Below are positions 28,444-58,718 of a stretch of DNA of 64,000 nt, piece by piece. The stretch spans positions 5,704,001-5,768,000 of the forward strand of contig NZ_BLPG01000001.1 of assembly GCF_011764445.1 (NCBI RefSeq), read 5' to 3'. The notes under the pieces were generated by a model that saw nothing but the letters and a program-made list of their open reading frames with translations, ran no database searches and was not told the origin of the DNA. Source of the DNA: Phytohabitans rumicis. Its GTDB lineage: Bacteria; Actinomycetota; Actinomycetes; Mycobacteriales; Micromonosporaceae. A program made the position numbers and the translations under genes. Each line of letters opens with the position of its first letter. The stretch's first letter is position 1.

Positions 28444-28526
28444 GCGTCGATCAAGGGCATATGGCCGTGGTTTGATCTCCGATCCACGACCGTATGCCCT
28501 TGATCGGCGTGGAAGTCCTTGATCGG
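28444..28526 (+). repeat. Intergenic palindromic element, copy A
   Basis: Imperfect palindrome with inner arms GTCGATCAAGGGCATAYGG and its complement near TATGCCCTTGATCGGCG, asymmetric centre TTTGATCTCCGATCC, and one outer arm AAGTCCTTGATCG on the right. The asymmetric centre defines orientation; A is taken as plus. Five relatives (B-F) occur in this window. A and B are inverted relative to each other and differ at about one base over the core. Confidence 0.9.
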
Positions 28527-28571
28527 TGGGCTCGGGCTGGGTGGGTGGTGCGCGTGCGTCCTCGCCCCAGT

Positions 28572-28613
28572 AGGGCGCCCCCATGCCCGCCATGGCATGT
28601 ACAGGGGCGCCCT
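28572..28613. repeat. Nested hairpin in the 28.4-29.6 kb gap
   Basis: AGGGCGCCCC (28572-28581) pairs with GGGGCGCCCT (28604-28613), with a second dyad (CATGCC...GGCATG) inside. The right arm is part of a longer sequence that recurs in inverted form at 28968-28987 and 29202-29230. Confidence 0.75.
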
Positions 28614-28864
28614 CAAGGCCGGGTGGTTAAGGGAATCAGGTCCATGTCGAGCGCTGATGTGACGCGGCCGTCGCCCTCGACTTTGGTGACTGTGTCGAGA
28701 AGTTGCCCTTCCAGGGGCAACTGTTCGCCACGGTCGCGGCGTACGTCGGGCCCGCCGTCGATCACATCACCGGCCCGGTGGGTGGACCCAGATCCAGCGG
28801 CCGGTTATATCGGATACATCCGGGTGCAGGCCCGGCCCACCCCTTAGCCAAGTCGAAGCTGGCA

Positions 28865-28917
28865 GTAGATCTAGACGAGTTAGGGCTCGATGTCAGCCGT
28901 ACCTCGTCTAGATCTAC
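28865..28917. repeat. Perfect 15-bp inverted repeat
   Basis: GTAGATCTAGACGAG (28865-28879) and CTCGTCTAGATCTAC (28903-28917) are exact reverse complements separated by 23 bases. It lies inside the larger 28601-29230 inverted repeat. Its base composition is less GC-rich than the surroundings. Confidence 0.85.
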
Positions 28918-29074
28918 CCCGCCTCGTCGTCGCGGCCTTGACGTCCGCACCGGCCCCCTGATGTTGCGGCCTTGAGGGCGCCCCTGTTGTGCGCTATCCG
29001 GTGACCGGGGGTGCCATCAGGGCCAGGTGACCGCGCCGTTCCCGATCACCCGGACGGTGTGACCCGGCTCCTGT

Positions 29075-29136
29075 GGTGATCATGAAGTTGACGCCCGGGG
29101 AGAGCCCTTTTCCCTGCCGCTAACTTCATGATCACC
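29075..29136. repeat. Perfect 15-bp inverted repeat around GTGATCATGAAG
   Basis: GGTGATCATGAAGTT (29075-29089) and AACTTCATGATCACC (29122-29136) are exact reverse complements separated by 32 bases. It belongs to a third, unrelated palindrome type in the same gene-free region. Confidence 0.85.
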
Positions 29137-29337
29137 GCAGGCTGGCGTCGGCTCCAACGCTGGGCAAGCGATCAGCCGCGCGGCTTGACAGCGCCCAGGA
29201 ATCCTTAACTACCCGGCCTTGAGGGCGCCCTACTCACGCCTGCCCCGAGCGACTTCGTGGGCGCGGTGGGATCTTGCGCTCGGACGTGGTCCTCCCGCGG
29301 CAGCGCCCACGTCCGCATCCCGCCGCCCTAGGCGCGC

Positions 29338-29423
29338 GCCGATCAAGGATTTCCCCGCCGATCAAGGGCAAACGGTCGTGGATCGGAGATCAAACCACGG
29401 CCATATGCCCTTGATCGACGGGG
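29338..29423 (-). repeat. Intergenic palindromic element, copy B
   Basis: Same family as copy A, in the opposite orientation: GATCAAGGATTTCC, GATCAAGGGCAAACGG, centre GGATCGGAGATCAAA, then CATATGCCCTTGATCGACG. One outer arm only. It is followed directly by a G-rich tandem repeat. Confidence 0.9.
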
Positions 29424-29485
29424 AGAGGGGAAAGGCGGGGAGAGGGGAAGGCGGGGAGAGGGGAAGGCGGGGAGAGGGGAAAGGC
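29420..29485. repeat. G-rich 16/17-bp tandem repeat, four units
   Basis: Four units of GGGGAGAGGGGAA(A)GGC start at 29420, 29437, 29453 and 29469 (17, 16, 16 and 17 bases). It abuts copy B. The regularly spaced G-runs could form G-quadruplexes. Confidence 0.85.
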
Positions 29486-29535
29486 GGGGACGGCGGGGGA
29501 GGGCGGGTCTTGACGAGATTCATACGCTTCCGAGG

Positions 29536-38504: not shown

Positions 38505-39817
38505 TTACTTGTCCGCAGCCTTCTTCGCGTTGGTCACGGCGTCGTTCCAGCCGTCTGTGGGACTGCGCTTGCCCAACTCGACCGTGCGCACCGCGTTTTC
38601 CACCTCGGTCCGGACCGCCTGGTTCTTCGGTCCCATGTAGACCGGCTTGAGGCTCTTGGCACCGGCACCGAAGATCTGACCGGTCGGCGCGTTGCTGAAG
38701 TACGCGCTGGTCGCTCCGGTCACCGCCGGGTCGTCGAGCGCCTGCGGCGACGAGGGCAGCGGGCCCTTCGCCTTGAACGCCCCGATCTGGCCCTGCGGGC
38801 TGGTCAGGAACTTGGCCAGCTCGACCGCCTCGGCCTGGTGCTTGCCCTGCTTGGGAACGGCGAGGAACGAACCGCCCCAGTTACCGCCGCTGCCGGGCAC
38901 GCTGGCGATGTCCCACTTGCCGGAGGCGCCTGCGCCCGCGTTGCCCTCGATGACGCCGGTCATCCACGCCGGGCACGCGATCGTGGCGAACTTGGCCTGC
39001 TTGAACGCGGCCACCCACTCGTCGGACCAGGCGCCGTACTTGCCGGACAGGCCGGAGTCGATGATGTCCATTGTGGTGTCCCACGCCTGCCGCACGGCCG
39101 GGTTGCTGTCCACCACGAGGTTGTTGTTGGTGTCGTAGTAGTGGTAGCCGCTCGCGGCGCCGGCGTACTGCAGCACGATCGTGTTGAACGTGTTGGTGGC
39201 GGCGTCGAGGAACGCGGCCCCGGTGTTCTTGGCCTTGAACTGCTCACCGACCTTGATGTAGTCCTGCCAGGTCGGCCACAGCTTGGACACCGCGTCCCGC
39301 TCGGTGGGCAGGCCGGCCTTCTCGAACAGGTCCTTGCGGTAGCACATCGCCATGCCGCCCACGTCGGTGCCGAGCCCGACCAGCTGCTTGCCGTCGGCGG
39401 TCAGCCCCTGGTTCCACTTCCACTCCATGAAGTTGCCCTTGAGCTCGGCGGCGCCGTGGTCGAGCAGGTTCACGAAGTGGCCGGGGTTGGCCTTGTACTC
39501 CACGAGCAGGCCCTCCTCGATGGCGACGACGTCGCCGGCGCCCTTCCCGGCGGCGAGCCACTGGGTGAGCTTGGGGAGTACTCATCGAGGTTGCTGCCGG
39601 TGCCCCGCTCCACGATCTTGACGTTGGGGTGGCTCGCCTCGTACTGCCGGTAGAGCTCGTCGTATCCGAACTGGCCGAAGACGTCGACCGTCAACGTGAT
39701 CGGTCCGCCATCGCCACTGCTGCTTTCGTCGTCGCCGCCGCAGGCGGCTAGCAAGGTCGCCGTCGTGACGGCGACGGCCACGGCCGTGAACCGGCGACCG
39801 CGGGAAGTGACGCGCAT
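38505..39817 (-). pseudogene. Carbohydrate ABC transporter substrate-binding lipoprotein, frameshifted as read
   Basis: About 437 aa when restored. The first frame (39817 down to 39470) carries a lipoprotein signal with lipobox LAAC followed by GGDDESSSGDGG. It then shifts at the run GGGG (39573-39576). With five G it would continue SPKLTQWLAAGKGAGDVVAI into the second frame, which is open from 39503 to 38505. The protein is a family 1 solute-binding protein, first gene of the operon, with three LacI-type operators upstream. The long intact second frame argues against an old pseudogene. Confidence 0.85.
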
Positions 39818-39845
39818 GGGTGCCCCTCTCCGTGCACGCGCTCCC

Positions 39846-39949
39846 TGAGAGCGCTCTCACAGGAGAGTCGTCGCTCGTTTCGGTCTTGTCAAGAGAGCGC
39901 TCTCAGAACGTTACGAACGCCGACTCTTACGCTCGTGAGAGCGCTCCCA
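39846..39949. promoter_or_regulatory. Three CebR/LacI-type operators upstream of the sugar importer
   Basis: TGAGAGCGCTCTCA (39846-39859), AGAGAGCGCTCTCA (39892-39905) and TGAGAGCGCTCCCA (39936-39949) are near-identical palindromes. Their starts are 46 and 44 bases apart. They closely resemble the Streptomyces CebR box TGGGAGCGCTCCCA. The LacI regulator encoded at the end of this operon is the natural candidate, giving substrate-induced autoregulation. Confidence 0.8.
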
Positions 39950-39980
39950 CGCTGGATTACGCGCCGCCCGCCGGGCCCGC

Positions 39981-40106
39981 CGCGTCGATCAAGGACTTGT
40001 GCGTCGATCAAGGGCGTACGGCCGTGCTTTGATCTCTTTTCCACGGCCGTTTGCCCTTGATCGGCGAGGAAGTCCTTGATCGGCGGGGAAGTCCTTGATC
40101 GGCGAG
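39981..40106 (+). repeat. Intergenic palindromic element, copy C
   Basis: Same family and orientation as copy A. It has both outer arms (GATCAAGGACTT on the left, AAGTCCTTGATCGGCG on the right), and the right outer arm is duplicated in tandem, making this the longest copy. The centre is CTTTGATCTCTTTTCC. Confidence 0.9.
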
Positions 40107-40185
40107 CATCGGCCAGCATCGGCGAGCGCTGCCGTGATCCGGCGCGGGCCGCTATTGGACTGGTGTAAGGTGGCAGCTCAGCGTG

Positions 40186-40201
40186 GATTGGTGGGCCAAT
40201 C
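40186..40201. promoter_or_regulatory. Operator-like dyad before the MocR gene
   Basis: GATTGG (40186-40191) and CCAATC (40196-40201) form an inverted repeat three bases before the start codon. ATTGGACTGG at 40154-40163 repeats the half-site. MocR regulators commonly bind repeated half-sites at their own promoters. Confidence 0.4.
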
Positions 40202-40204
40202 GTC

Positions 40205-46036: not shown

Positions 46037-47011
46037 TCAGGCGGTTGCTTCGTCGGCCGGCAGGGGCCGGCCGACGTACGCGCCCATCCATCGGTCCAGC
46101 TCACGGAAGACTTGATCGCGTACGGCCGGGCCGGACAGGGTCAGGTCGTGCTTCCCGCCGTCGAACCGGACGACCGTCACATGTCTGCCGAGGCGGGGCG
46201 CCCATCGGACGATGTGCTCGACGTCGAGGACGGCGTCCGCGAGGGCGGCGGAGTCGTCCCAGCGGGAGCCACGGAAGCTGCGCTCGGAGCAGGCCAGCAG
46301 GATCGGGCCGGGAATCGCGAGCCCGGCCCGCAGCCGCAGGTGCGCCCGCCGGATCGCGTCCAGCCAGCCGGCGCGTACCGGGAATCCGAGCAGGGGCTTC
46401 CAGGTCAGGTCGTACGCCCATTCGCCGCGCTGCTCGACGTGCAGGCTCTGGCCGTACACCTGGGAGAGGCCGAGCGGGACGATCCGGTACGGCGCGCCGC
46501 GGCCGACCCGGGCGACGGCGGCCGCGACCGGGCGGCGGACGAACCAGGGCGCGTTGAAGTCGAAGAACGGGCTGTTGAGGAAGAGGCCGTCCACGATGCC
46601 GTCGGCGCGCCGGTCGTGGGCCCACAGCGAGGTGATCAGGCCGCCGGTGGAGTGGCCGTTGACCAGCAGCGTGTCGTGGCCGTCCTCGGCGCGGATGATC
46701 CGGGCCGCCGCGTCGAGCTCCGGGTAGTAGTCGGTGAGGTTGTGGCAGAAGTTGGGCGTCTGGTGCGGCAGCAGGCTGCGGCCGTACTTGCGCAGGTCGA
46801 GCGCGTAGAAGTCCCAGCCGCGGTCGGTGTAGAACTCGGCGAGGTGGGTCTGGAAGAAGTAGTCCACGAAGCCGTGCACATAGAGCACAGCGCGCCCGGT
46901 GGGCTGCTGCGCACGCCGGCTGACGAGGGTGGCCACCACGGGGCCCTCGTCGTCGCGCCCCAGGTCGATGACCTGGCTCTGGTAGGGCGCTCCCAACACG
47001 TCCGGTTCCAC
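46037..47011 (-). CDS. Alpha/beta hydrolase (serine aminopeptidase S33/monoacylglycerol lipase-like)
   Basis: About 324 aa from GTG 47011; a start at 47044 is also open. The nucleophile elbow is NGHSTGG, the oxyanion region YVHGFVDYFF, and the catalytic His lies in GGKHDLTLS. No signal peptide. Lysophospholipase or carboxylesterase activity is likely; substrate unknown. It stands alone, with the tRNA gene downstream and the ssb gene divergent. Confidence 0.8.
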   Translation of the reverse strand: MEPDVLGAPYQSQVIDLGRDDEGPVVATLVSRRAQQPTGRAVLYVHGFVDYFFQTHLAEFYTDRGWDFYALDLRKYGRSLLPHQTPNFCHNLTDYYPELDAAARIIRAEDGHDTLLVNGHSTGGLITSLWAHDRRADGIVDGLFLNSPFFDFNAPWFVRRPVAAAVARVGRGAPYRIVPLGLSQVYGQSLHVEQRGEWAYDLTWKPLLGFPVRAGWLDAIRRAHLRLRAGLAIPGPILLACSERSFRGSRWDDSAALADAVLDVEHIVRWAPRLGRHVTVVRFDGGKHDLTLSGPAVRDQVFRELDRWMGAYVGRPLPADEATA

Positions 47012-47064
47012 GCTTGCACGGTACCGGCTGGTAGCCCATAGCACATCAGAGCTTGATCAGGGCG

Positions 47065-47092
47065 TTTTCCACAGGCGCCCCAGTTATCCACA
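47065..47092. promoter_or_regulatory. Two DnaA-box-like sites upstream of the SSB paralogue
   Basis: TTTTCCACA (47065-47073) and TTATCCACA (47084-47092) lie in the same orientation, 19 bases apart. The second is a perfect consensus DnaA box. They are about 100 bases upstream of the ssb start. Chance occurrence in isolation is possible. Confidence 0.4.
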
Positions 47093-47191
47093 GCCGGGGG
47101 TGCGTGGGGTGGCGCGGCTGCCTTCCTGGGTTCACGCTGTGGCCCGAGTCGACTCGCACCGCAAGCCCTTCGAGCCCCTGTGGGAGACGCG

Positions 47192-47968
47192 ATGTTCGAT
47201 ACCTACGTCACAATTGTCGGAAATGTGATGACCGCCCCGGACTGGCGGCGCACGACCCAGACCAACTCGCTGGTCGCCAAGTTCAAGGTCGCCTCGACCG
47301 CGCGCCGCCTCGACCGGGAGACCGGCCGCTGGATCGACGGCAACAGCCTGCGGGTACGGGTGACGTGCTGGCGCAAGCTCGCCGAGGGCGTGTCCGCCAG
47401 CGTCATGGTCGGCGACCCGATCATCGTGGTCGGCCGGCTCTACACGCGGGACTGGACCGACGGCGAGGGCAACCACCGCACGCTGTACGAGATGGAGGCG
47501 GTCGCGGTCGGCCACGACCTGGCCCGCGGCCGGGGCCGGTTCGCCCGCAACCGCGCGGTGATGGCCACCAGCGCGGTGGAGGACGCCGAGGCCGACACCC
47601 GGGTGCGCGGCGAGGCCACCGAGGCGGTGCCGGCGGACGAGGCGCCCACCCACTTCGGCGACCACACGCTCGACGATCCGGACTTCAGCGACGCGCCGAT
47701 CTCGCCCGCACCCGGGTACGACGCGTTGGCCGAGATGCGGGGCGGTGGCGGCTTCGGCGAGGACACATCCGAGGACACGTCTTCGGATGTGTCCGAGGAC
47801 GCGGACGACGACCTGGACCCGGACGACCCCGGATCCCCCGGGAGCGGCGAGCTGGACGCGCTCCCCGGTGACGGCGCGGAGCCCGACCCGGTGGTGCTCG
47901 ACCCGGCCGCCTCGGCCGAAACCGGGCGGGCCCGGCGCGGCCGCGGCCGTACGCCGGTGCCGGCGTAA
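47192..47968 (+). CDS. Single-stranded DNA-binding protein paralogue
   Basis: 258 aa. The N-terminal about 110 residues form the SSB OB-fold (MFDTYVTIVGNVMTAPDWRR, LRVRVTCWRKLAEGV and IIVVGRLYTRDW). The rest is a long acidic, disordered tail rich in Asp, Glu and Pro. It ends in basic RARRGRGRTPVPA rather than the DDDIPF-like tip that recruits partner proteins in the housekeeping SSB. ATG 47192 has GGGAG upstream. This looks like the second (SsbB-type) actinobacterial SSB, with a role outside core replication. DnaA-box-like sites lie upstream. Confidence 0.85.
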   Translation: MFDTYVTIVGNVMTAPDWRRTTQTNSLVAKFKVASTARRLDRETGRWIDGNSLRVRVTCWRKLAEGVSASVMVGDPIIVVGRLYTRDWTDGEGNHRTLYEMEAVAVGHDLARGRGRFARNRAVMATSAVEDAEADTRVRGEATEAVPADEAPTHFGDHTLDDPDFSDAPISPAPGYDALAEMRGGGGFGEDTSEDTSSDVSEDADDDLDPDDPGSPGSGELDALPGDGAEPDPVVLDPAASAETGRARRGRGRTPVPA

Positions 47969-48065
47969 GCGCAGGCGGGGTGGTCGGTGCCGTCCGGTCG
48001 GCCATCCCGCCCCCGCTAGGCTGCCCGTCGGGGGTGATCGCCATGCGGGCGCGGAGCGGGGCGCG

Positions 48066-49004
48066 ATGAGCCTGCCCAACGCCGTGGGCCTGCTCGCCGG
48101 GTACGCCGTGGACGCGCTGGTGGGCGATCCGCGCCGGTACCACCCGGTGGCCGGCTTCGGCCAGGCGGCCGCCGCCCTCGAACGCCGGCTCTACCGGCCC
48201 GGGCGTACGGCCGGGGCGGCGTTCACCGCGCTCGCCGTGGGTGCGCCGGTGGCCGCCGCCGTCGCCGCGACCGTGGCCACCCGGCGGCGCCCGCTGGCCC
48301 GCGCGGTCCTGGTGGCCGCCGGCACGTGGGCGGTGCTCGGTGCCCGTACGCTCCGCAGCGAGGCGGGCATCATGGCCGGCGCCCTGGAACGGGCCGACCT
48401 GCCCGCCGCACGCGCCCGGCTGAGCCATCTGTGCGGCCGCGATCCGTCCAGTCTGGATGAGCCGGAGCTGGCCCGCGCCACCGTCGAGTCGGTAGCCGAA
48501 AACACCTCGGACGCCGTCGTGGCGCCGCTCTTCTGGGGCGCGGTCGCGGGGCTGCCGGGGCTGGTCGGCTACCGGGCGGCCAACACGCTGGACGCGATGG
48601 TGGGCCACCGCTCGGCGCGGTACGCCCGGTTCGGCACGGCGGCGGCCCGGCTGGACGACGGGCTCAACCTCGTACCGTCCCGGCTGACGGCGGCGCTGAC
48701 GGTCGCCGCCGCCCCGCTCGTCGCCGGCGACCCGGCGAACGCCTGGCGCATCTGGCGGCGGGACGGGGCCGACCACCCGAGCCCCAACGCGGGCCAGTGC
48801 GAGTCCGCGATGGCGGGCGCGCTGGGCGTACGCCTCGGCGGCCGCAACGTCTACTTCGGACGGTCCGAGACCCGCCCGTTCCTCGGCGACGGACCACGTC
48901 CGGTGGCGCTGGACATCCGCCGCGCGGCCCGGCTCTCCGGCGCCGTCGGGCTCGCCGCGGTGGCCCTCGCGGGCGTGGTGGCGGCCGTGCGGGGCGCTAA
49001 ATGA
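48066..49004 (+). CDS. cobD: Adenosylcobinamide-phosphate synthase (CobD/CbiB)
   Basis: 312-aa membrane enzyme that attaches the aminopropanol arm to adenosylcobyric acid in cobalamin synthesis. It contains [20 protein letters not shown], given in part as [14 protein letters not shown], then [19 protein letters not shown] and [23 protein letters not shown] in part; these are family hallmarks. ATG 48066 is the start; the open frame further upstream is a shadow of ssb. The stop overlaps cobQ as ATGA. Confidence 0.92.
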
Positions 49005-50529
49005 GGGGACTCCTCGTCGCCGGGACCACATCCGACGCGGGTAAGTCCGTGGTCACCGCAGGGGTGTGCCGGTGGCTTCGGCGGCAGGGCGTGAAGGTCG
49101 CCCCGTTCAAGGCACAGAACATGTCCAACAACTCGGCGGTGGTCGCCGGCGGGGTGAGATCGGGCGGGCGCAGGCGATGCAGGCGGCGGCGAGCGGCGTC
49201 GCGCCGGACGTCCGCTTCAACCCGGTGCTGCTCAAGCCGGGCAGCGACCGGTCGAGCCAGGTCGTCCTGCTGGGCGAGGCGGTCGACACGGTCACCGCGG
49301 CGAACTACCGGTCGCTGCGCCACCGCCTCGCCACCACCGTGTTCGACACGCTGGCCGAGCTGCGCGCCGAGTACGACGTGGTGGTCTGCGAGGGCGCCGG
49401 CAGCCCCGCCGAGATCAACCTGCGGGACGGCGACTTCGTCAACATGGGGCTGGCCCGGCACGCCGGCCTGCCCGCCATCGTCGTCGGCGACATCGACCGG
49501 GGCGGGGTGTTCGCCGCGCTGTTCGGGACCGTGGCGCTGCTGTCGCCCGAAGACCAGGCGCTGGTGGCCGGCTTCGTCGTGAACAAGTTCCGCGGCGACC
49601 CCGGCCTCCTCCGCCCGGGGCTCGACATGATCACCGCCGTGACCGGGCGGGCGGTGCTCGGCGTACTGCCCTGGCACCTGGACCTGTGGCTCGACGCCGA
49701 GGACTCGCTCGCGTACGGGCGGGTGCTCGGCCGGCCGGCGCCACCGCGAGGCACGCAGTGGCTACGGGTCGCCGTCGTACGGCTGCCCCGGATCTCCAAC
49801 GCCACCGACGCGGAAGCGCTCGCCACCGAGCCCGGCGTGCGGGTGCGGCTCACGATCGAGCCGGCCGAGCTGGCCGACGCCGACCTCGTCGTACTGCCCG
49901 GGTCCAAGTCCACCGTGGACGATCTGGCATGGCTGCGCGACACCGGCCTCGCCGACGCGGTGACCGCCCACGCCGCGTCCGGCCGGCCCGTCCTGGGCAT
50001 CTGCGGCGGGTTCCAGATGCTCGGCACGCTGATCCACGACGAGGTGGAGAGCCGGCGCGGCACCGTGCCGGGGCTCGGCCTGCTGCCGGTCGAGGTCACG
50101 TTCGGCCCGCGCAAGACCCTGGCGCAGTCGGTGGGCACGGCGTTCGGGTCGGTCCCGGTGCACGGCTACGAGATCCATCACGGGTACGTCTCCCGCGCCG
50201 ACCCGTCGCTCGCCCCGCTGATCCAGTACACGGACGGCCGCGCCGAGGGAGCCGCCCAAGGCAACGTCTTCGGCACACACTGGCACGGCGCCTTCGAGTC
50301 CGACGAGTTCCGCCGGCGGTTCCTCGCCGAGGCGGCGCGGCTCGCCGGGCGGCACGGCTTTCTGGTCGCGCCGGACACCGCGTTCGCCGCGGTCCGCGAA
50401 CGCACCCTCGACCTGCTCGGCGACCTGGTCGAGGAGCACCTCGACACGGATGCCCTGTGGCGCCTGGTCGAGGCGGGCCCACCGCCCGGCCTGCCCTTCA
50501 TCCCGCCGGGAGCACCCGCGCCCGCCTAA
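49001..50529 (+). pseudogene. cobQ: Cobyric acid synthase (CobQ/CbiP), frameshifted as read
   Basis: Glutamine-dependent amidase that makes adenosylcobyric acid, the substrate of CobD. About 509 aa when restored. The first frame begins [20 protein letters not shown], with the P-loop-like site. It shifts at GGGG (49151-49154), where five G would read [18 protein letters not shown] and join the second frame, open to 50529. The glutamine amidotransferase domain is intact, with [10 protein letters not shown] (Cys nucleophile) and THWHGAFE (His). All active-site regions survive, so a base-call error is the likely reason for the break. It is translationally coupled with cobD. Confidence 0.88.
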
Positions 50530-50605
50530 CCGCGCCTGACGCGTTCGAGTGCGCTGCCCGGGCGCCGTGCCGCCCCGCCCTCGCCGCGCCCCGTCTCGTT
50601 GCGCT

Positions 50606-50712
50606 GCGTCGATCAAGGACTTCCGCGTCGATCAAGGGCGAACGGTCGTGGTTTGGAGATCAAAGTACGGCCGTATGCCCTTGATCGACGCGGAAGTCCT
50701 TGATCGACGCGG
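50606..50712 (-). repeat. Intergenic palindromic element, copy D
   Basis: Same family as A-F, in the minus orientation, with both outer arms complete (GATCAAGGACTTCCGCG on the left, GCGGAAGTCCTTGATCG on the right) and inner arms GATCAAGGGC/GCCCTTGATC. It is the most symmetrical copy. A 17-bp G-rich repeat starts nine bases after it. Confidence 0.92.
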
Positions 50713-50720
50713 AGGGCGGC

Positions 50721-50839
50721 GGGGTGCGCGCGGCGGCGGGGTGCGCGCGGCGGCGGGGTGCGCGCGGCGGCGGGGTGCGCGCGGCGGCGGGGTGCGCGCG
50801 GCGGCGGGGTGCGCGCGGCGGCGGGGTGAGCGCGGCAGC
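50721..50839. repeat. 17-bp G-rich tandem repeat, seven units
   Basis: Six perfect units of GGGGTGCGCGCGGCGGC start at 50721, 50738, 50755, 50772, 50789 and 50806. A degenerate seventh starts at 50823. Likely variable in copy number between strains. It ends about 50 bases before the kinase start and may affect its expression. The rest of the 50530-50887 gap holds only copy D and G-rich sequence. Confidence 0.93.
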
Positions 50840-50887
50840 GGGGAGCGACGGTGGGAGCGGGGTGAGGGGTAGAGGGGAGGATGAGGG

Positions 50888-51439
50888 GTGTATGGGGAGA
50901 TTGCGGGGGAGGTTTGGCGGCGGGCGGCGCGGTTGGGAGGGACGCGGTTGGTGGCCGTCGACGGGCCTAGCGGGGCGGGGAAGACGCGGTTCGCGGGGCG
51001 CTTGGCCACCGCGCTCGGCCCCGCCGTCCCGGTCGTGCACACCGATGACCTGCTCGACGGGTGGGGCGACCAGGTGACGTTCTGGCCCCGGCTGGAGGAG
51101 TGGGTGCTGGCGCCGCTGCGCGCGGGCCGGCCGGGGCGCTACCGGACGTACGACTGGGAAGCGGGGTGCTTTGGTCCGGAGTGGACGGTGGTCGAGCCGG
51201 CCCCCGTGGTGATCCTCGAAGGCGTCACGTCCGCCCGCGCGAGGATCAGGCCGGAGCTGACCCTGTCGGTGTTCGTCACCGCCCCGCTCGCGACGAGGGT
51301 GCGCCGGGCGCAGGAGAGAGACGGCGGGACGCTCTCGGCGTACCTCGAAGAATGGCGGCGGGGCGAGGACGCGCACTTTGCCGCGGACGCCACGGCCCAC
51401 CACGCCGATCTGGTGGTGGACACCACCCCCCATCCCTAG
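50888..51439 (+). CDS. P-loop nucleoside/uridine kinase-like protein
   Basis: 183 aa from GTG 50888. The Walker A motif is DGPSGAGKT (about 25-33), followed by VVHTDDLLDGW and a Walker-B-like VVILEGV, with a lid region RVRRAQERDGG. This fits the uridine kinase/phosphoribulokinase-like group. Substrate unproven. The stop codon lies inside a strong terminator hairpin. The upstream tandem repeat makes the exact start less certain. Confidence 0.8.
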   Translation: MYGEIAGEVWRRAARLGGTRLVAVDGPSGAGKTRFAGRLATALGPAVPVVHTDDLLDGWGDQVTFWPRLEEWVLAPLRAGRPGRYRTYDWEAGCFGPEWTVVEPAPVVILEGVTSARARIRPELTLSVFVTAPLATRVRRAQERDGGTLSAYLEEWRRGEDAHFAADATAHHADLVVDTTPHP

Positions 51440-51468
51440 GGTCTGCCACGTCGTGGCAGACCCTAGGG
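51434..51468 (+). terminator. Strong hairpin containing the kinase stop codon
   Basis: CCCTAGGGTCTGCCACG (51434-51450) and CGTGGCAGACCCTAGGG (51452-51468) are exact reverse complements. The TAG stop (51437-51439) is in the left arm. No U-run. Confidence 0.75.
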
Positions 51469-51555
51469 GGGATATCCGGGGTATGGCCCATAGACGCCGG
51501 GCATCGGCTCAGGCACCATCGGCATGAGCGACATCACACACCCGGGGGAGCGGCC

Positions 51556-52731
51556 ATGACGTCAAGCGATGAAGGCGGTACTGCGACACCTGCGACGCCG
51601 CCGGCGCGGCGCCGGGTGGTGCTTACCGGGATCAGCTCGCGGGCCTGGGAGCACCCGGCCGACCGCGGCGCGCTGACCGCGCTGCGTGAGCTGCGTGGCT
51701 TCGACGACGTGGTCAAGGCGTTCTTCGGGATGTGGAACGAGCGGGGCTTCCGGCTGGCGTATCTCGCGTCGGCGATCCGCGTCGACCACCGGCAGTACCC
51801 GCGCGTCTACCAGCTGTACGCGGAGGCGGCGACCTCGCTCGATGTGCCGGAGCTGCCGGAGCTGTACGTCAAGCAGGACCCGTTCCTCAATGGGCAGGCG
51901 ATCGGCCTCGACAAGCCGTTCATCGTCCTTCCGACGGCGAGCGTGCAGCAGCTCGACGACGACGAGCTGCGGGCGCTGCTCGGGCACGAGCTGGGCCACG
52001 TGCGCAGCGGGCACGCCGTCTACAAGACCATCCTGATCATCCTGACCCGGTGGGCGGCCAGCCTGAGCTGGCTCCCGGTCGGCGCGCTCGCCCTGCGCGC
52101 GATCATCGGGGCGATGATGGAGTGGTGGCGCAAGGCCGAGCTGTCCGCCGACCGGGCGGGCCTGCTGGCGGGCCAGGACCCGGCCGCCTCGCTGCGGCTG
52201 CTGATGAAGATGGCCGGCGGCGGCGACCTCTCCCAGGTCGATACCGCGGCGTTCCTGGAGCAGGCGGCGGAGTACGACGGGGGCGGCGACCTGCGGGACA
52301 GCCTCCACAAGCTCCGGATGACCCTGTGGTCCACCCACCCCGTGCCGGTGGCGCGCGCGGCCGCCCTGCGGCATTGGATCGACTCGGGCGACTACGCGCG
52401 GATCCTGGAGGGCGACTACCCGCGTCGCGAGGACGACAGCACCGCCTCCGTGACGACCGAGGTCAAGGCCGCGGCGGAGTCCTACCGGGAGGCGTTCGGG
52501 CGTACGCAGGACCCGCTGGTCGGGCTGCTGCGCCGGCTCGGCGACGGGGCCAGCGAGATGGGCGAGTGGGCCGGCGGGGCGGCCGGAAAGGCTCGGGCGT
52601 GGTTCGGCGCCGCGGGCGAGGCGGCCGGCCGGGCCGCGCGCGGTGAGCGGCGCACGACGCCACCGCCGCCGAGCAACGGCAATGGCAACGGCGACAGCGA
52701 CGGCGACGGTCAGGACTCGACCGAGACGTAG
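51556..52731 (+). CDS. M48 family metallopeptidase
   Basis: 391 aa. The zinc motif HELGH is at 144-148, with the third ligand Glu in AELSADRAG (about 195), as in Ste24/HtpX-type enzymes. One or two hydrophobic segments (about 158-187) follow the active site. The C-terminus is an Ala/Gly-rich helix with a Pro/Asn/Gly/Asp tail. ATG 51556 follows GGGGGAG. A role in membrane-protein quality control is inferred from family only. Confidence 0.87.
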   Translation: MTSSDEGGTATPATPPARRRVVLTGISSRAWEHPADRGALTALRELRGFDDVVKAFFGMWNERGFRLAYLASAIRVDHRQYPRVYQLYAEAATSLDVPELPELYVKQDPFLNGQAIGLDKPFIVLPTASVQQLDDDELRALLGHELGHVRSGHAVYKTILIILTRWAASLSWLPVGALALRAIIGAMMEWWRKAELSADRAGLLAGQDPAASLRLLMKMAGGGDLSQVDTAAFLEQAAEYDGGGDLRDSLHKLRMTLWSTHPVPVARAAALRHWIDSGDYARILEGDYPRREDDSTASVTTEVKAAAESYREAFGRTQDPLVGLLRRLGDGASEMGEWAGGAAGKARAWFGAAGEAAGRAARGERRTTPPPPSNGNGNGDSDGDGQDSTET

Positions 52732-52741
52732 TATTCGGCTC

Positions 52742-54100
52742 ATGACCTTGAGCGAGCCTGAGCTGCGCGCGGCGATCACGCGCGAGTTGCCCGGAGTGCG
52801 TGCCGATCTCGAACGCCTGGTCCGCATCCCGGGCATCGCGTTCGACGGTTTCGACCACTCGCCCGTCGAGCGGTCAGCCGAGGCGGTCGCCGAGTTGCTG
52901 CGCGGTTGCGGGCTCGAGGTGCGGATCGTGCGCTCCGGCGGCCAGCCCGCGGTGATCGGCAAGCGTCCGGCGCCGCCCGGTGCGCCCACCGTCCTGCTCT
53001 ACGCCCACCACGACGTCCAGCCGGTGGGCGATCTCTCGCTCTGGGAGAGTGAGCCGTTCGAGCCGGTGGAGCGGGACGGGCGGCTCTACGGTCGGGGCGC
53101 CGCCGACGACAAGGCCGGGGTCATGGCGCACGTCGCGGCGCTGCGGGCGTACGGGGACGACCTCCCGGTCGGTGTGGTGGTGTTCGTGGAGGGCGAGGAG
53201 GAGTTCGGCTCGGAGTCGCTGGAGCGACTGCTCGACGAGCACCGGGACGACCTCGCCGCGGACGTGATCGTGATCGCCGACTCGGGCAACTGGGACATCG
53301 GCGTACCGGCGCTCACCACCTCGCTGCGCGGCATCGTCAACATGTTCGTCGAGGTGCGCACGGCGGAGCACGCCGTACACAGTGGAATGTTCGGCGGGGC
53401 GGTGCCGGACGCGCTGACCGTGCTGGCCAAGCTGCTCGCCACGCTGCACGACGACAACGGCGACGTGGCGGTCGACGGGCTGGTCGGCAAGGGCGGCGCG
53501 CCGGTCGACTACCCCGAAGACCGGCTCCGGGCCGAGGCCGGCTTGCTCGACGGGGTGCAGTTCGTGGGCACCGGCCGGCTCACCGAGCGGATCTGGACCA
53601 AGCCGGCGCTGGCGGTGCTGGGCATCGACGCCCCGCGTACGTCGGAGGCGCCCAACGCGATCGTGCCGAAGGCCAAGGCGAAGCTGAGCGTCCGGTTGGC
53701 GCCGGGCGACGAGCCCAAGAGCGCGTACCTGGCGGTCAAGGCCCACCTGGAGCAGTACGCGGTGTGGGGCGCCCAGGTCGAGGTGACGTTCGAGCACGAC
53801 GGGGCGCCGTGCGTGATCGACGCGACGGGGCCGATGTACGACGCGGCGCGGGCGGCCTTCCGGGACGCCTGGGACGGCGTGGAAGCGGTGGAGATCGGGG
53901 TGGGTGGGTCGATCCCGTTCATCGCGACCTTCCAGGAGATGTTTCCCGGCGCGGCGATCCTGGTGACCGGCGTGGAGGACCCGAGCTCGCAGGCGCACGG
54001 GCCGAACGAGAGCCTGCACCTGGGCGAGTTCGCGCGGGTGTGCCTCGCGGAGGCGCTACTTCTCGCCAACGTCAGCGGCGCGGCCGTAGCGGCTTCCTAG
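52742..54100 (+). CDS. M20 family dipeptidase
   Basis: 452 aa. Two-zinc peptidase fold: LLYAHHDVQPVG and GRGAADDKAG carry metal ligands, the catalytic Glu pair is in VEGEEEFGS, and later ligands are in IADSGNW and QAHGPNESLHLGE. This matches the cytosolic dipeptidase (CNDP/PepV-like) branch, which lacks a signal peptide. ATG 52742 is ten bases after the M48 stop, so both may be cotranscribed. Its 3' end overlaps the opposing WYL gene by 45 bases. Confidence 0.9.
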   Translation: MTLSEPELRAAITRELPGVRADLERLVRIPGIAFDGFDHSPVERSAEAVAELLRGCGLEVRIVRSGGQPAVIGKRPAPPGAPTVLLYAHHDVQPVGDLSLWESEPFEPVERDGRLYGRGAADDKAGVMAHVAALRAYGDDLPVGVVVFVEGEEEFGSESLERLLDEHRDDLAADVIVIADSGNWDIGVPALTTSLRGIVNMFVEVRTAEHAVHSGMFGGAVPDALTVLAKLLATLHDDNGDVAVDGLVGKGGAPVDYPEDRLRAEAGLLDGVQFVGTGRLTERIWTKPALAVLGIDAPRTSEAPNAIVPKAKAKLSVRLAPGDEPKSAYLAVKAHLEQYAVWGAQVEVTFEHDGAPCVIDATGPMYDAARAAFRDAWDGVEAVEIGVGGSIPFIATFQEMFPGAAILVTGVEDPSSQAHGPNESLHLGEFARVCLAEALLLANVSGAAVAAS

Positions 54101-55027
54101 CGTGCGCAGGTAGGCGACCAGTTCGGGCGGATCGGTGACCTCGAAGTCGAGGTCGAGCATGCCCAGGTACACGGCGAGAGTATTGAGGCTGTCGGCTCCT
54201 GTATCCAAAATGCAGGAGCCAATGTCGACAGCCTCGACCACGCCGACCGCTGGGTTGATCCGCTCGGTCACCACCTCCGCCGGGGCGTGCACGAGGACCC
54301 GTGCCCGCCAGCGCCACGCCGCGGCCGAGACGCCCCGGGCCACGTGCGCCGCGGCGCCGCCCTCCGGCCCCTCGCGCGGCGCGAAGCGCGGGCCGGTCGG
54401 CGTACGCGGGTCGATGCGGTCCACCCGGAACGTGCGCCAGTCCTGGCGGTCGACGTCCCACGCGACCAGGTACCAGCGGCGTCCCCAGGACACCAGCCGG
54501 TGCGGCTCCACCGCCCGGACGCTGGCCGATCCGTCGTGGCCCCGGTAGTCGAACCGCAGCCGCTCCGCGTCGCGGCACGCCGCCGCCAAGGTGGTCAGCA
54601 CGCCCGGGTCGACGGTGGGGCCCGGCCGGTCCGGCGGCACCGGCACCGTGTACGCCTGTAGCGCGTTCACCCGGTGCCGTAGCCGAGCCGGGAGCACCTG
54701 TTCGAGCTTGGCGAGCGCGCGTACCGAGGTCTCCTCGATGCCGGCGACCGTGCCGCCCGCGGCGGTGCGCAACCCGATCGCCACCGCGACGGCCTCGTCG
54801 TCGTCCAGCAGCAGCGGCGGCATGGCGGCGCCGGCGCCGAGCCGGTAGCCGCCGTCCGTGCCGCGGCTGGCGTGCACCGGGTAGCCGAGGTCGCGCAGCC
54901 GGTCGACGTCGCGCCGGACGGTGCGCTCGCTCACCTCCAGCCGTTCGGCCAGGGCCGCCCCGGACCAGTCCCGCTTGGCCTGCAACAACGACAGCAGGCG
55001 AAGCAGTCTCGCGGAGGTCTCCAGCAT
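54056..55027 (-). CDS. WYL-domain (YafY-type) transcriptional regulator
   Basis: 323 aa. An N-terminal DeoR-like HTH (ALAERLEVSERTVRRDVDRL) is followed by the WYL domain (RLVSWGRRWYLVAWDVDRQ, with WYL read as WYLVAWD) and a C-terminal WCX-like region. WYL domains sense ligands such as nucleotides. It is divergent from the epoxide hydrolase operon, with 63 bases between starts, and is its probable regulator. Confidence 0.88.
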   Translation of the reverse strand: MLETSARLLRLLSLLQAKRDWSGAALAERLEVSERTVRRDVDRLRDLGYPVHASRGTDGGYRLGAGAAMPPLLLDDDEAVAVAIGLRTAAGGTVAGIEETSVRALAKLEQVLPARLRHRVNALQAYTVPVPPDRPGPTVDPGVLTTLAAACRDAERLRFDYRGHDGSASVRAVEPHRLVSWGRRWYLVAWDVDRQDWRTFRVDRIDPRTPTGPRFAPREGPEGGAAAHVARGVSAAAWRWRARVLVHAPAEVVTERINPAVGVVEAVDIGSCILDTGADSLNTLAVYLGMLDLDFEVTDPPELVAYLRTLGSRYGRAADVGEK

Positions 55028-55090
55028 TCTCGAAAGTCTGCCAGGGCTTTAGGACAGGACCTGACCGGAAGGGTCCGTAGCGTATCTGTC

Positions 55091-56185
55091 ATGAGCGAAA
55101 ACACCGAGATCAAGCCGTTCCGCATCGACGTACCGCAGGCGGACCTCGACGACCTCCGCGACCGCCTGGACCGGACCCGCTGGCCCGACGAGATCCCGGG
55201 CTCGGGTTGGGACTACGGCGTGCCGGTGGCGTACGTGAAGAAGCTCGCCGACTACTGGCGCTCCGGGTACGACTGGCGGGCCTGGGAGGCTCGCTTGAAC
55301 GCCTTCCCGCAGTTCACTACCACGATCGACGGGCAGAACATCCACTTCCTGCATGTCCGGTCGGCGCGCGAGGACGCGCTGCCGCTGATCCTCACGCACG
55401 GCTGGCCCGGCTCCATTGTGGAGTACCTGGACGCGATCGCCCCGCTGTCCGAGGACTTCCACCTAGTGATTCCGTCGCTGCCCGGCTTCGGCTTCTCCGG
55501 CCCGACCACGGACAAGGGCTGGAACCGGTACCGCACCGCCAAGGCGTGGGCCGAGCTGATGCGGCGACTGGGCTACGACCGGTACGGCGCGGTCGGCAAC
55601 GACGCCGGCTCGTTCGTCTCGCCCGAGGTGGGGCGGATCGACCCGGAGCACGTGGTCGGCGTACACGTGACGCAGGTCTTCTCGTTTCCATCCGGCGACC
55701 CGGCCGAGTTCGAGAAGCTCACCCCGGAGGAGCACAAGGGACTCGAGGTCCTGCAGTGGTTCTACGACAACAAGATGGCGTACAACGTCCTGCACTCGCA
55801 GCAGCCGCAGACCCTGTCGTACGCCATCTTCGACTCGCCCGCCGGCCTGCTGGGCTGGAACGCGCAGATCCTGGGCGAGGACCTCGACGCCGACTTCGTC
55901 CTCACCAACACGATGCTGTACTGGCTGACCGGCACGGCCACCTCGGCGACCCGCTTCTACTACGAGGACGCGCGTGCCGAGACGCCCACCGGGCCGACGA
56001 CGGTGCCGCTCGGCCTGGCGATGTTCCAGGGTGACTTCGTCTCGATGCGCACCTTCGCCGAGCGCGACCACCTCGACATCCGGTCGTGGCACGCGTACGA
56101 CTCGCCCGGCGGGCACTACGCGGCCCACCTGGCGACGGCGGAACTGGCCGCGGACATCCGCGACTTCTACAGTGGACTGAAGTGA
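55091..56185 (+). CDS. Epoxide hydrolase (EHN-domain alpha/beta hydrolase)
   Basis: 364 aa. The N-terminal EHN domain (FRIDVPQADLDDLRDRLD) is followed by the alpha/beta hydrolase core. The oxyanion motif is HGWPGS (103-108), the nucleophile Asp171 is in GNDAGS, and the catalytic His is in GGHYAAHL near the C-terminus. Such enzymes open epoxides by a two-step ester mechanism. A microsomal-type relative is likely; substrate unknown. It is first in an operon with an AlkZ-like protein and an NAD(P)-binding protein, opposite a WYL regulator. Confidence 0.88.
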   Translation: MSENTEIKPFRIDVPQADLDDLRDRLDRTRWPDEIPGSGWDYGVPVAYVKKLADYWRSGYDWRAWEARLNAFPQFTTTIDGQNIHFLHVRSAREDALPLILTHGWPGSIVEYLDAIAPLSEDFHLVIPSLPGFGFSGPTTDKGWNRYRTAKAWAELMRRLGYDRYGAVGNDAGSFVSPEVGRIDPEHVVGVHVTQVFSFPSGDPAEFEKLTPEEHKGLEVLQWFYDNKMAYNVLHSQQPQTLSYAIFDSPAGLLGWNAQILGEDLDADFVLTNTMLYWLTGTATSATRFYYEDARAETPTGPTTVPLGLAMFQGDFVSMRTFAERDHLDIRSWHAYDSPGGHYAAHLATAELAADIRDFYSGLK

Positions 56186-57249
56186 GCGAGGTCTTGACGT
56201 GGCGCGCTCTCGGGCGCGCCACGCTCGCCCGCCAGCTCCTGCTGCGCCGCTCGGACATGCCGGCTCGACAGGCCATCGAGCACCTCGTCGGCATGCAGGG
56301 TCAGGCGCCGCACGCGCCGTACATCGGGCTGTGGACGCGACTGTCCACGTTCGACCCGCAGGCGCTGAGCCAGCTGCTGCTGGACCGGGCGGTGGTACGG
56401 ATCGCCCTGATGCGTGGCACGGTCCATCTCGCCACCGCCGCCGACGCGCTGGCGCTGCGCCCGCTGACCCAGCCGATCTACGACCGCGACCTGCGTACCA
56501 ACGTCCTGCACGGCCCGGCGCTGCGTGGCCTCGACCTGCCGGCCGTCGCCGCCGCCGGGCGCGAGCTCGTCGAGGCCCAACCCCGCACGGGTACGCAGTT
56601 GAGCGCGCTCCTCGCCGAGCGGTGGCCGGACCGGCCGGGCGCCTCGCTGGCGTACGCCCTGCGCGACCTGCTGCCCCTGGTGCAGGTGCCGCCGCGCGGG
56701 CTCTGGGGCCGCAGCGGCCAGCCGGTGCTGACCACCGCGGAGTCCTGGCTCGGGCGCCCGCTCGCCGCCATGGACCCGGGCTCGATGGTGACCCGCTACC
56801 TCGGCGCGTTCGGGCCGGCGACCGTCCAGGATGCACAGACCTGGTCGGGGCTGACCGGGCTGCGCGAGGTGGTCGAGCGGCTCCCGCTGGCCCGCTTTCG
56901 GGACGAGGCGGGCCGGGAGCTCTTCGACCTGCCGGACGCGCCCCGGCCCGACCCGGACACCCCGGCGCCGGTGCGCTTCCTGCCGGACTTCGACAACCTG
57001 TTGGTCTCGCACGACGACCGCACACGGGTCATCGCCGACGCGCATCGGGCGTACATGGCCAAGCACCGGCTGGTCCGCGCGGTTCTCGTGGACGGGATCG
57101 TGGCCGGCACCTGGACGATCGCGAAGCGGCGGCTGGAGATCCGGCCCTTCGGGGGGCTGTCCAAGCGGGACCGGTCGGCGGTCGCGCAGGAGGGCGAACG
57201 GCTGTTGGGCTTCGTCCACCCGGGAGCTGCCGGTACGGTCTTCCTGTGA
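56182..57249 (+). CDS. Winged-helix (HTH_42) protein, AlkZ-like DNA glycosylase family
   Basis: 355 aa from GTG 56182, overlapping the epoxide hydrolase stop as GTGA. It contains three winged-helix-like units typical of the HTH_42 superfamily. The motif MQGQAPHAPY carries QxQ, the catalytic signature of AlkZ (crosslink-unhooking glycosylase), against QxD in YcaQ-type enzymes. AlkZ relatives often protect antibiotic producers from DNA-alkylating products. Being cotranscribed with an epoxide hydrolase suggests defence against a reactive epoxide; this is inference. Confidence 0.82.
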   Translation: MSEVLTWRALGRATLARQLLLRRSDMPARQAIEHLVGMQGQAPHAPYIGLWTRLSTFDPQALSQLLLDRAVVRIALMRGTVHLATAADALALRPLTQPIYDRDLRTNVLHGPALRGLDLPAVAAAGRELVEAQPRTGTQLSALLAERWPDRPGASLAYALRDLLPLVQVPPRGLWGRSGQPVLTTAESWLGRPLAAMDPGSMVTRYLGAFGPATVQDAQTWSGLTGLREVVERLPLARFRDEAGRELFDLPDAPRPDPDTPAPVRFLPDFDNLLVSHDDRTRVIADAHRAYMAKHRLVRAVLVDGIVAGTWTIAKRRLEIRPFGGLSKRDRSAVAQEGERLLGFVHPGAAGTVFL

Positions 57250-57893
57250 GAGTCGTCCTCTTCGGCGCCACCGGGATGATCGGGCAGGGTGTGCTGCGCG
57301 AGTGCCTCCTCGCTCCCGATGTCGAGAGTGTGCTGTCGATCGGCCGGGCGCCGACCGGGCAGCGGCACGAGAAGCTCCGCGAGATCGTCCACAAGGACCT
57401 GCTGGACCTCTCCAGCATCCAGGACGACCTGGGCGACCAGGACGCGTGCTTCTTCTGCCTGGGCGTCTCGTCGACGGGGATGAGCGAGGCCGACTACCGG
57501 CGCATCACGTACGACGTGACGATGGCGGCCGGGCACGCGCTGGCGCCGGCGAACCCCGACCTGACCTTCATCTACGTGTCCGGTGCCGGCACCGGCGGCC
57601 GGGCGATGTGGGCGCAGGTCAAGGGCCAGACCGAGGACGCGCTGCTGGCCCTGTACCCGAACGCGTACATGTTCCGGCCCGGGTTCATCCGGGCGATGCA
57701 CGGCGCCACCTCCCGGACCCGGCTCTACCGGGTGATGTACCGGATCGTCTCTCCGGTCGTACCACTGATCATGCGGCTCTTCCCGAAGCAGATGACGACG
57801 ACCGAGCGGATCGGTCTCGCCATGCTGAACGTCGCGCGCCAGGGTGCTCCTAAGAGGATCCTGGATCCAACAGACATCAACGCGCTCGCCTAG
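57246..57893 (+). CDS. NAD(P)-binding epimerase/reductase-like protein
   Basis: 215 aa, atypical short-chain dehydrogenase fold. The N-terminal dinucleotide motif GATGMIGQG follows a beta strand ([10 protein letters not shown]). Later [11 protein letters not shown] and [10 protein letters not shown] correspond to NmrA/epimerase-like proteins. The Tyr-x3-Lys catalytic pair is not obvious, so it may be a sensor or atypical reductase. GTG 57246 overlaps the previous stop. Last gene of the epoxide hydrolase operon. Confidence 0.8.
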
Positions 57894-57980
57894 ACGATCT
57901 GTTCCAAGAGACAGATGCGAGCTGCCGCGACGTGCGTCGTGGTCTCGACCGTTGCTCCCGCGGCCTCACCCTCCGCGTCC

Positions 57981-58082
57981 CCCGATCAAGGGCTCGCCCG
58001 TCGATCAAGGGCATATGTTCGTGGTTCGATCTCCCTTCCACGACCATTCGTCCTTGATCGACGCAGAAAGCCTTGATCGAAC
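57981..58082 (+). repeat. Intergenic palindromic element, copy E
   Basis: Same family and orientation as A and C. It is more diverged: left outer arm GATCAAGGGCTCGCC, inner arm GATCAAGGGCATATG, centre GGTTCGATCTCCC, right arms TCCTTGATCGACGC and GCCTTGATCGA. Its right end is seven bases from the Rrf2 stop codon. Confidence 0.85.
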
Positions 58083-58089
58083 AGATCGT

Positions 58090-58560
58090 CTATGGCACCA
58101 GCGCGTCGCGGGTGCGCTCCGGCGTACCGGGGAAGCGTGCCTCGACGGTGGCCCTGATGTCCGCGATGGTCCGCGCCGCCAGCTCCCGCCGCCAGGCCAG
58201 GTCCGCGCTGCGCATGGCCTGGGACAGCACGCAGGTCTCCCGGTAGTCCACGGTGGGGTCGCCGCCGGGGCCGTCCTTGAGGATCTCGGTGCAGCGGAAC
58301 GCCTCGTCCGCGCCCTCGATGGCGATGACCACGTCGAGCAGGGTGATCGCGTCGAGTGCCCGGGCCAGCCGGAAGCCGCCCTTCGGGCCGGAGGTGGAGG
58401 AGAGGATGCCGGCCCGGGCCAGCGCCTGGAGCTGCTTGTTGAGGTAGGCGGTGGGCAGGTTGTAGAAGGCGGCCAGCTTCGCTGCGGTCACGGCCCGGTC
58501 GGGCTCGACCCACGACAGGTTGAGGCAGCTGTGCAGCGCCCACTCCACGCCCTCGTTCAT
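58090..58560 (-). CDS. Rrf2-family transcriptional regulator
   Basis: 156 aa from ATG 58560 (GTG 58566 is an alternative). The winged HTH has [20 protein letters not shown], read in part as [15 protein letters not shown], and [10 protein letters not shown] in the wing. Two cysteines lie in FRCTEIL and ETCVLSQAM; the three-Cys cluster of IscR/NsrR is absent, so redox sensing by a Cys pair is more likely than an Fe-S cluster. No adjacent oxidoreductase gene. The gene is bracketed by inverted copies E and F of the intergenic repeat. Confidence 0.85.
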
Positions 58561-58628
58561 CCTCACGATCCTGGACGATACTTATCCAGAACGCGGAGCG
58601 TCATCAGCTTTCCGGCGGACACCGCGTG

Positions 58629-58718
58629 TTCGATCAAGGACTTTCGCGTCGATCAAGGGCAAAAGGTCGTGGATCGGAGATCAAAGCACGGCCATATGCC
58701 CTTGATCGACGCGGAAAG
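58629..58718 (-). repeat. Intergenic palindromic element, copy F
   Basis: Same family as B and D, minus orientation: GATCAAGGACTTTCGCG, GATCAAGGGCAAAAGG, centre GATCGGAGATCAAAGC, then CATATGCCCTTGATCGACGC. It is followed by a G/C-rich low-complexity stretch up to the ligase start, where no other element is clear. Confidence 0.9.

Follow-up and report, generated by a model that had tools for sequence, protein, structure and literature searches.

Hairpin Copies in the Window

The window, i.e., the whole stretch of 64,000 nucleotides analyzed here, carries six copies (A to F) of one palindromic repeat, whose coordinates and arms, as given in a preliminary description, were all confirmed in the sequence. 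The copies and their closest neighbors are:

28403-29500, no strand assigned: island spanning copies A and B, with additional nested inverted repeats inside
28444-28526, plus: copy A; core hairpin 28449-28505 with one right outer unit and no left outer unit; on its 5' side a C-rich tract lies in the gap from the stop codon (28402) to the copy
29338-29423, minus: copy B; core 29360-29416
28445-28531 and 29334-29420: arms of the inward-facing pair A/B, 94% complementary
39981-40106, plus: copy C; core 40006-40062 with a single left outer unit and two right ones; divergent genes on either side
50606-50712, minus: copy D; core 50630-50686, one left and one right outer unit; then a G-rich tandem repeat of 17 bp
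57981-58082, plus: copy E; core 58003-58059 with 2 mismatches, the most diverged of the six
58090-58560, minus: gene for an Rrf2-family regulator, bracketed by the pair E/F
58629-58718, minus: copy F; core 58651-58707

Searching with the core pattern at up to 3 mismatches returned only these six copies in the window (28449+, 29360-, 40006+, 50630-, 58003+ and 58651-) and nothing in 100 shuffled windows, in agreement with the earlier observations that no copy precedes 28 kb and that the orientations run + - + - + -. None of the six cores falls inside an ORF of the codon-usage gene caller, and the copies had rightly been placed outside genes. As described, the left outer unit is missing in A, B, and F, and C possesses two right ones. 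In the Rfam scan of the window only one tRNA exceeded the gathering threshold, while the copies remained unmatched.

Structure of the Element

We found that the core is a 57-bp hairpin with constant feet, a constant loop (TTTGATCTC) and a variable stem. In a detailed sample of 164 cores, 162 of which were used for counting outer units (two lie too close to a stretch end), the 19-bp outer unit is present on the right side in 158 of 162 copies and missing from the left side in 82. The proposal that arms are gained and lost as units thus holds in part, for the variable left unit, the right one being near-constant. The CGATCAAGG modules are likewise constant and occur in arrays; solitary CGATCAAGG sites show no clear excess over three control words (77 vs. 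72, 32, and 32).

Stem changes are compensated, both between species and among copies. The stem reads GG[CT]CGTG / CACG[AG]CC in the window genome (G000) and, according to a partial list of copies, mostly GCACGTG / C[AG]CGTGC in G001. Among 32 of the 34 copies of G048 (two of odd length were left out), Watson-Crick cells number 336 against 263.3 expected, the maximum of 5000 shuffles being 286. With tandem duplicates merged, the variable stem positions of G000 covary weakly (Watson-Crick sum 497 vs. 479 expected, p 0.046; counting G-T, 610 vs. 594, p 0.0095), and position 17/41 exhibits the opposite trend. Given this weakness, recognition of double-stranded DNA fits the G000 data as well as folding does; however, the strong covariation in G048 sets back the idea of pure double-strand half-site recognition.

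The core is preceded on the left by CGTC, and the four bases on its right are, in the larger class of copies, G (.95), A (.70), C (.99), and G (.97), the second being mostly G where it is not A. As CGTC thus has its counterpart in G[AG]CG on the other side, the motif is paired and does not form an unpaired tag. Outside the left foot the sequence is on average C-rich and G-poor, with a C/G ratio of about 2 in single and paired copies alike, and the right flank is on average G-rich.

Copy Number and Occupancy of Sites in Relatives

Counting copies over the whole genome, as had been suggested, we found many: 574 at up to 3 mismatches in 10.71 Mb, with none in the control. Two stretches, about 0.8 and 1.0 Mb long, show none. 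The occurrence of the family is patchy, as 3 of the 250 GTDB-family genomes were found to carry it, the window genome included. Within one genus, two species have it in large numbers, each with its own stem, and the other four of the six genus genomes have no clear family (0, 1, 1, and 6 diverged matches). The viral, plasmid, and phage collections contained no match to the element.

Empty orthologous sites, the search for which had also been proposed, were found for each of the four window sites in at least one relative. The A-B island is absent from G002 and G004, where 44 and 77 bp separate the flanking alignments and the stop codon is soon followed by the ABC gene's promoter region. Copy C is absent from the same two genomes and copy D from G002, G003, and G004. 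The E-F pair is missing in G001 (alignments 24 bp apart vs. 930 in the window). None of the empty sites fetched from relatives contains GATCAAGG or CCTTGATC. In one interval G001 possesses a copy opposite in orientation to that of the window genome (L138, 18120 on the minus strand, vs. L222), which is best read as independent insertions in the two genomes. Some insertions may be old, as two sites carry the element in G000 and G001 alike, and at one of these each genome has a + - pair. Neither of the copies flanking the LPMO gene is present in G001, where the gene itself is conserved; that pair therefore did not arrive with cargo, and cargo-carrying pairs can be rejected as the general case.

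Gene Context and Pair Polarity

The copies are found mostly near gene 3' ends, with an enrichment in convergent intergenic DNA: among intergenic regions 100 bp or longer, an element is present in 56 of 160 between convergent genes, in 14 of 309 between divergent genes, and in 22 of 220 and 33 of 296 of the two tandem groups. Ten of the 164 cores overlap ORFs of the codon-usage caller; these, together with four that have no gene on one side in their stretch, were dropped from the count of orientation by context. Among the 144 copies belonging to the two main classes, 104 have a co-oriented gene on the left side, as do 11 of the 16 others, yet in tandem contexts the orientation relative to the genes is nearly even (35 co-oriented, 29 anti-oriented), which rules out a gene-direction rule as the sole cause of pairing.

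Strict polarity is observed among close pairs. The 165 neighboring pairs, window included, comprise within 1.2 kb 38 pairs ordered + then -, none ordered - then + and 18 of the same orientation (p about 7e-12). This one-way polarity holds in every gene context, and the right sides of inverted close pairs face inward, mostly over 170 bp to 4 kb. Among the G001 copies listed, pairs under 4 kb include at least seven +-, one ++ and no -+. Alternation is real within the window, but it is not a genome-wide rule, since same-orientation neighbors are common beyond 4 kb. In 24 close pairs the two members differ from each other only slightly less than random copies do (5.6 vs. 6.7 mismatches, p 0.01). 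The interiors of these pairs share a stretch in 17 of 276 comparisons, of up to 86 bp among the 25 matches listed.

A Probable New REP-Like Family

Copies A to F probably belong to a dispersed family of non-autonomous hairpins that behaves like REP elements and depends on a presumed mobilizer. A folded single strand, comprising feet and loop, would be recognized by some enzyme and then copied or moved, which would often yield head-to-head pairs. Selection would purge insertions near promoters or in genes, and those behind stop codons would remain. The copies are neither few nor randomly oriented, nor are they conserved at the same sites, which had been named as arguments against dispersal. Possibly, the copies also have a secondary role as transcribed 3' hairpins aiding 3'-end formation. 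Against the REP-like reading stand the C-rich and G-rich flanks, for which it gives no account, the failure to find a mobilizer (no Y1_Tnp match, no target duplication, ordinary genes between the paired copies tested), the weak stem covariation inside G000, and the two sites filled in both G000 and G001.

Like this family, ERIC, BOX, and other modular repeats of intergenic DNA are palindromes of about 100 bp or modular units for which no transposase is evident. To our knowledge, their sequences are unrelated to it and strict pair polarity is not known for them.

According to Di Nocera et al. (2013; PMC3733652), the GTAG and CGTC super-families of REPs are numerous extragenic hairpins of 20-40 bp, described mainly from Proteobacteria. 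The RAYT protein is thought to move GTAG REPs, while CGTC families have no dedicated transposase. Actinobacteria are not among the phyla that the paper gives for these super-families, although untagged REP-like repeats are noted in M. tuberculosis; REPs in some Actinomycetota are also listed in PMC12306157. Compared with the REPs outlined in PMC3733652, our family shares high copy number, extragenic location near 3' ends and in convergent regions, preference for head-to-head pairs as in most REP families, with head-tail ones rare, and complementary stem changes in subfamilies, which are strong in G048 and between G000 and G001 and weak within G000. It differs in its 57-bp core, longer still with outer units, in having no unpaired GTAG/CGTC tag at one end, in the 170-bp to 4-kb spacing of most inverted pairs instead of 20-100 bp, and in its 19-bp modules and C-rich/G-rich flanks. 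With REPINs, which are mobilized by RAYT (TnpA-REP; PMC3116915, PMC8266576), it has in common inverted hairpin pairs spreading within a genome. In contrast to REPINs, its spacers are neither short nor conserved and Pfam Y1_Tnp (PF01797) gave no match at E≤0.001 in any of the six genus genomes, while 5 of 14 control genomes were positive. The RAYT/IS200-like transposase for which a search had been suggested was not detected in these six genomes.

A new REP-like dispersed hairpin is our best reading of this actinomycete family, in which high abundance goes together with compensated stems particular to each species, sites cleanly empty in relatives, and inverted pairing in a single direction over as much as about 4 kb. 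It offers a natural system for seeking another mobilizer of bacterial hairpins, a question that PMC3733652 leaves open for CGTC families. The pair-polarity rule is a sharp constraint for any model.

Alternative Explanations

It is unlikely that the copies are primarily transcription-end elements, in which a C-rich, G-poor stretch would load Rho, the hairpin would fix or protect the 3' end, and selection would keep one copy facing each gene or promoter that would otherwise read into the intergenic space. The preference for 3' ends and convergent regions, the co-oriented left-side gene and the asymmetric flanks speak for it, and the upstream composition is what a Rho-dependent end would predict. 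In three of four copies fetched from another genus, the first foot lies 7-44 nt past the end of a plain open frame at least 27 codons long. However, the stem is followed by G-rich sequence and not by the T run of an intrinsic terminator, tandem contexts are nearly balanced, relatives do without copies at the same sites and gene context does not affect partner placement. A promoter/terminator scan of 39000-58900 returned a single terminator-like site, away from any copy.

More doubtful is that a non-RAYT enzyme spreads the hairpins in such a way that insertion leaves one C-rich and one G-rich flank, as though untemplated C-rich synthesis had extended both broken ends. Pairs would stand head-to-head at distances of hundreds of bases, and inward-facing hairpins would thereby bracket intergenic islands whatever the gene direction.

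The family is very unlikely to be a MITE of a DDE transposase, be it that each palindrome is a small element or that + and - copies are terminal repeats of units with any cargo. Inverted, inward-facing pairs would suit such an origin, as would the A-B and E-F islands, each missing as a whole in a relative. Yet in 162 copies, compared at k 3-9 and at offsets of 0-7 from the presumed ends, no target duplication exceeds that of shuffled flanks, the 24 interiors do not represent one sequence, and the LPMO pair is absent where its enclosed gene is conserved. The bracket genes tested, of which the second set was searched for 10 of 12, are ordinary save one IS4-type transposase and include no autonomous copy. 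Of the suggested REP/MITE-like family, dispersal is consequently borne out by copies, patchiness, species consensus, and empty sites, whereas a strict MITE is not, there being neither target duplication nor a parent transposase among those genes.

A chromosome-structure or nucleoid-protein site with positional information in its orientation, the other option raised initially, is highly improbable: density is high, the CGATCAAGG modules are constant, close-pair polarity is strict and a weak strand tendency by replichore exists, but close relatives do not conserve the sites, four of six genus genomes have no clear family, and copy-free stretches reach about 0.8 and 1.0 Mb.

With tandem duplicates merged, the orientation by replichore is at most slightly biased, with 33+/28- to the left of the skew switch and 35+/54- to its right (87 to 63, p 0.06). 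A replichore polarity, seen as blocks of - and then + among the first 100 places listed, was reduced by the sample to this weak tendency. Since single-strand transposition might bias the replication strand, a tendency that is only weak counts against the REP-like reading.

Copies in the window and across genomes

We re-read the window sequence (C1:5704001-5768000 of an own genome of 10,714,690 bases in 3 contigs) and recovered all six hairpin copies where the preliminary description had placed them. Their cores start at the following window positions:

28449, plus: copy A
29360, minus: copy B
40006, plus: copy C
50630, minus: copy D
58003, plus: copy E
58651, minus: copy F

The claimed alternation (+ - + - + -) holds, and so does the claimed extragenic location, as none of the six cores lies within a called gene; gene contexts throughout come from a purpose-written codon-usage gene caller and are subject to its errors. 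At up to three mismatches, the core pattern matches only A-F in the 64-kb window, and 100 shuffles gave no match. A minus-strand tRNA-Arg (tct) gene also lies in the window, at 45881-45955.

The genome-wide count proposed earlier gave 287 + and 287 - copies at up to three mismatches, with no match in the control. Using exact feet with a free middle, a palindromic pattern which thus counts each place once per strand, we obtained 548 matches in the own genome and, in its congeners, 241 in G001, 6 (diverged) in G004, one each in G002 and G003 and none in G005. The foot-to-loop pattern matched 3 of 250 GTDB family genomes, namely the own genome, G001 and G048, a further member of the family. A looser pattern, run on G048 and the genus genomes, detected 34 copies in G048. 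Viral, plasmid and phage collections contained no matches to the hairpin family. A 12-mer, CCCTTCCTTGCA, present in 27 non-coding segments among 140 sampled own-genome stretches, does not look like part of the family.

Anatomy of the hairpin

The core is a 57-bp stem-loop with feet GATCAAGG / CCTTGATC and loop TTTGATCTC. The foot pairs are almost invariant across 164 copies taken from the sample and the window, and a few stem and loop positions vary. Of 162 copies, 158 carry an outer unit, almost always 19 bp long, on their right side, and 153 of these have a single one; on the left, 82 copies have none, 72 have one and 8 have more than one. Three fully read copies of G001 possess the right unit without the left, and the four copies read in G048 consist of the core alone; this pattern suggests that the core came first, the right outer unit next and the left one last. 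Stem compensation is clear between species (own genome versus G001) and among G048 copies (336 paired cells vs. 263 expected), where it persists without the six GTCGCG copies (265 vs. 230), and is weak among copies of the own genome.

Outside the left foot, non-coding sequence is C-rich and A-poor, with C at 0.55 and G at 0.26-0.28 at 25-55 nt for both paired and single copies, and C at 0.46 and G at 0.33 for the remaining 29 copies. The right side is rich in G, at about 0.44 compared with 0.32-0.35 for C; copy-free intergenic regions show little C/G skew of this type. Since, on by-eye reading, the tracts adjoining A, B, C and D are missing from the empty sites of relatives, they seem to arrive with the insertion or to form later. 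Copies B and D directly adjoin G-rich 16-17-bp tandem repeats (window 29419-29500 and about 50714-50840, respectively), none of which were seen in the corresponding sites of relatives.

Pair polarity and gene context

The polarity of neighbouring copies was assessed in 165 pairs, drawn from 100 listed positions (0.036-2.716 Mb), the sample beyond them and the window. At distances within 1.2 kb there are 38 pairs of the + then - type, no - then + pair, and 18 that share one orientation; 14 of these 18 are less than 300 bp apart and apparently represent tandem duplicates. Up to 4 kb the ratio is 46 to 1, and beyond 4 kb - then + neighbours are common. A right-hand partner within 1.2 kb occurs in every gene context (convergent 25/69, tandem 10/35 and 7/29, divergent 4/14), and a left-hand one in none of 154 copies. 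Among the matches listed for G001, pairs below 4 kb comprise seven + -, one + + and no - +. The interiors of close pairs (n = 24) are not one sequence; 17 of 276 comparisons revealed a common stretch, of up to 86 bp among the matches listed. The A-B interior (window 28605-29230) contains further nested inverted repeats, among them a pair of 48 nt and hairpins containing GTGATCATGAAGTT and GTAGATCTAGACGAG.

Of intergenic regions 100 bp or longer, convergent ones carry a copy in 56 of 160 cases, the two tandem classes in 22 of 220 and 33 of 296, and divergent ones in 14 of 309. The left-side gene is co-oriented with the element in 106 of 150 copies, in 90 of them within 150 bp; in tandem contexts orientations relative to the genes are almost balanced (35 vs. 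29). As for a possible cellular use of the hairpins, 3'-end formation with the help of the C-rich stretch is our leading secondary idea. The replication-strand tendency is weak: about the skew switch near 4.5 Mb, counts are 33+/28- on its left and 35+/54- on its right. Two C1 regions, about 0.918-1.759 Mb and 6.93-7.94 Mb (~0.8 and ~1.0 Mb), hold none of the copies listed by position or found in a sample of about 30% coverage; they are roughly symmetric about the GC-skew switch, and called coding density is low (0.67-0.76) in three of the four bins sampled there and 0.85 in the fourth.

Empty and shared sites in relatives

The search for empty sites, also suggested in the preliminary description, revealed that each of A-B, C, D and E-F is missing from at least one relative. 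At the A-B site the flanking alignments are separated by 44 bp in G002 and by 77 bp in G004, compared with 1.1 kb in the window, and the ABC gene's promoter region comes shortly after the stop codon in these empty sites. Copy C is missing from G002 and G004. At the site of copy D the gap is 48 bp in G002 (vs. 410 bp), 53 bp in G003 (vs. 405 bp) and 82 bp in G004 (vs. 399 bp), and D is also missing from the G005 stretch. The E-F site measures 24 bp in G001 vs. 930 bp; in G002 its place is taken by about 1.9 kb of other, motif-free DNA. Elsewhere in the own genome, the minus copy at 16591 of stretch L138 has no G001 counterpart, and G001 keeps the LPMO gene of stretch L110 without either of its flanking copies. 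Just before copy E (window about 57905-57975) lies a different repeat, GAGCTRCCGCGACG ... CCGCGGCCTCACCCTCCGC, also found in intergenic sites of relatives without the hairpin family (L218, L220, L221).

Two sites are occupied in both the own genome and G001. One harbours a + - pair in both species, with unlike surroundings and species-specific stems, and could reflect either two insertions or shared descent accompanied by concerted change. The other interval, with a + copy in G001 and a - copy in the own genome, is best read as independent insertion.

Mobilisation and comparison with known repeats

The proposed RAYT/IS200-like transposase did not emerge: Pfam Y1_Tnp matched none of the six genus genomes and 5 of 14 controls. 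No target duplication rose above shuffled controls, and the bracketed genes tested (including 10 of 12 of one set) are ordinary, save one IS4-type transposase. Judged by the Y1 search, the hairpins are not a RAYT-linked REPIN. Set against PMC3733652, the family works like a REP element, which it matches in copy number and placement, in its compensated stems and in the head-to-head arrangement of its pairs. Membership in the GTAG or CGTC super-families, as that paper defines them, was rejected because this family has a paired tag and a different size. In full-text literature searches covering few subscription journals, no listed title or abstract opening described the hairpin family, which we filed under the dispersed-hairpin kind as a variety of its own.
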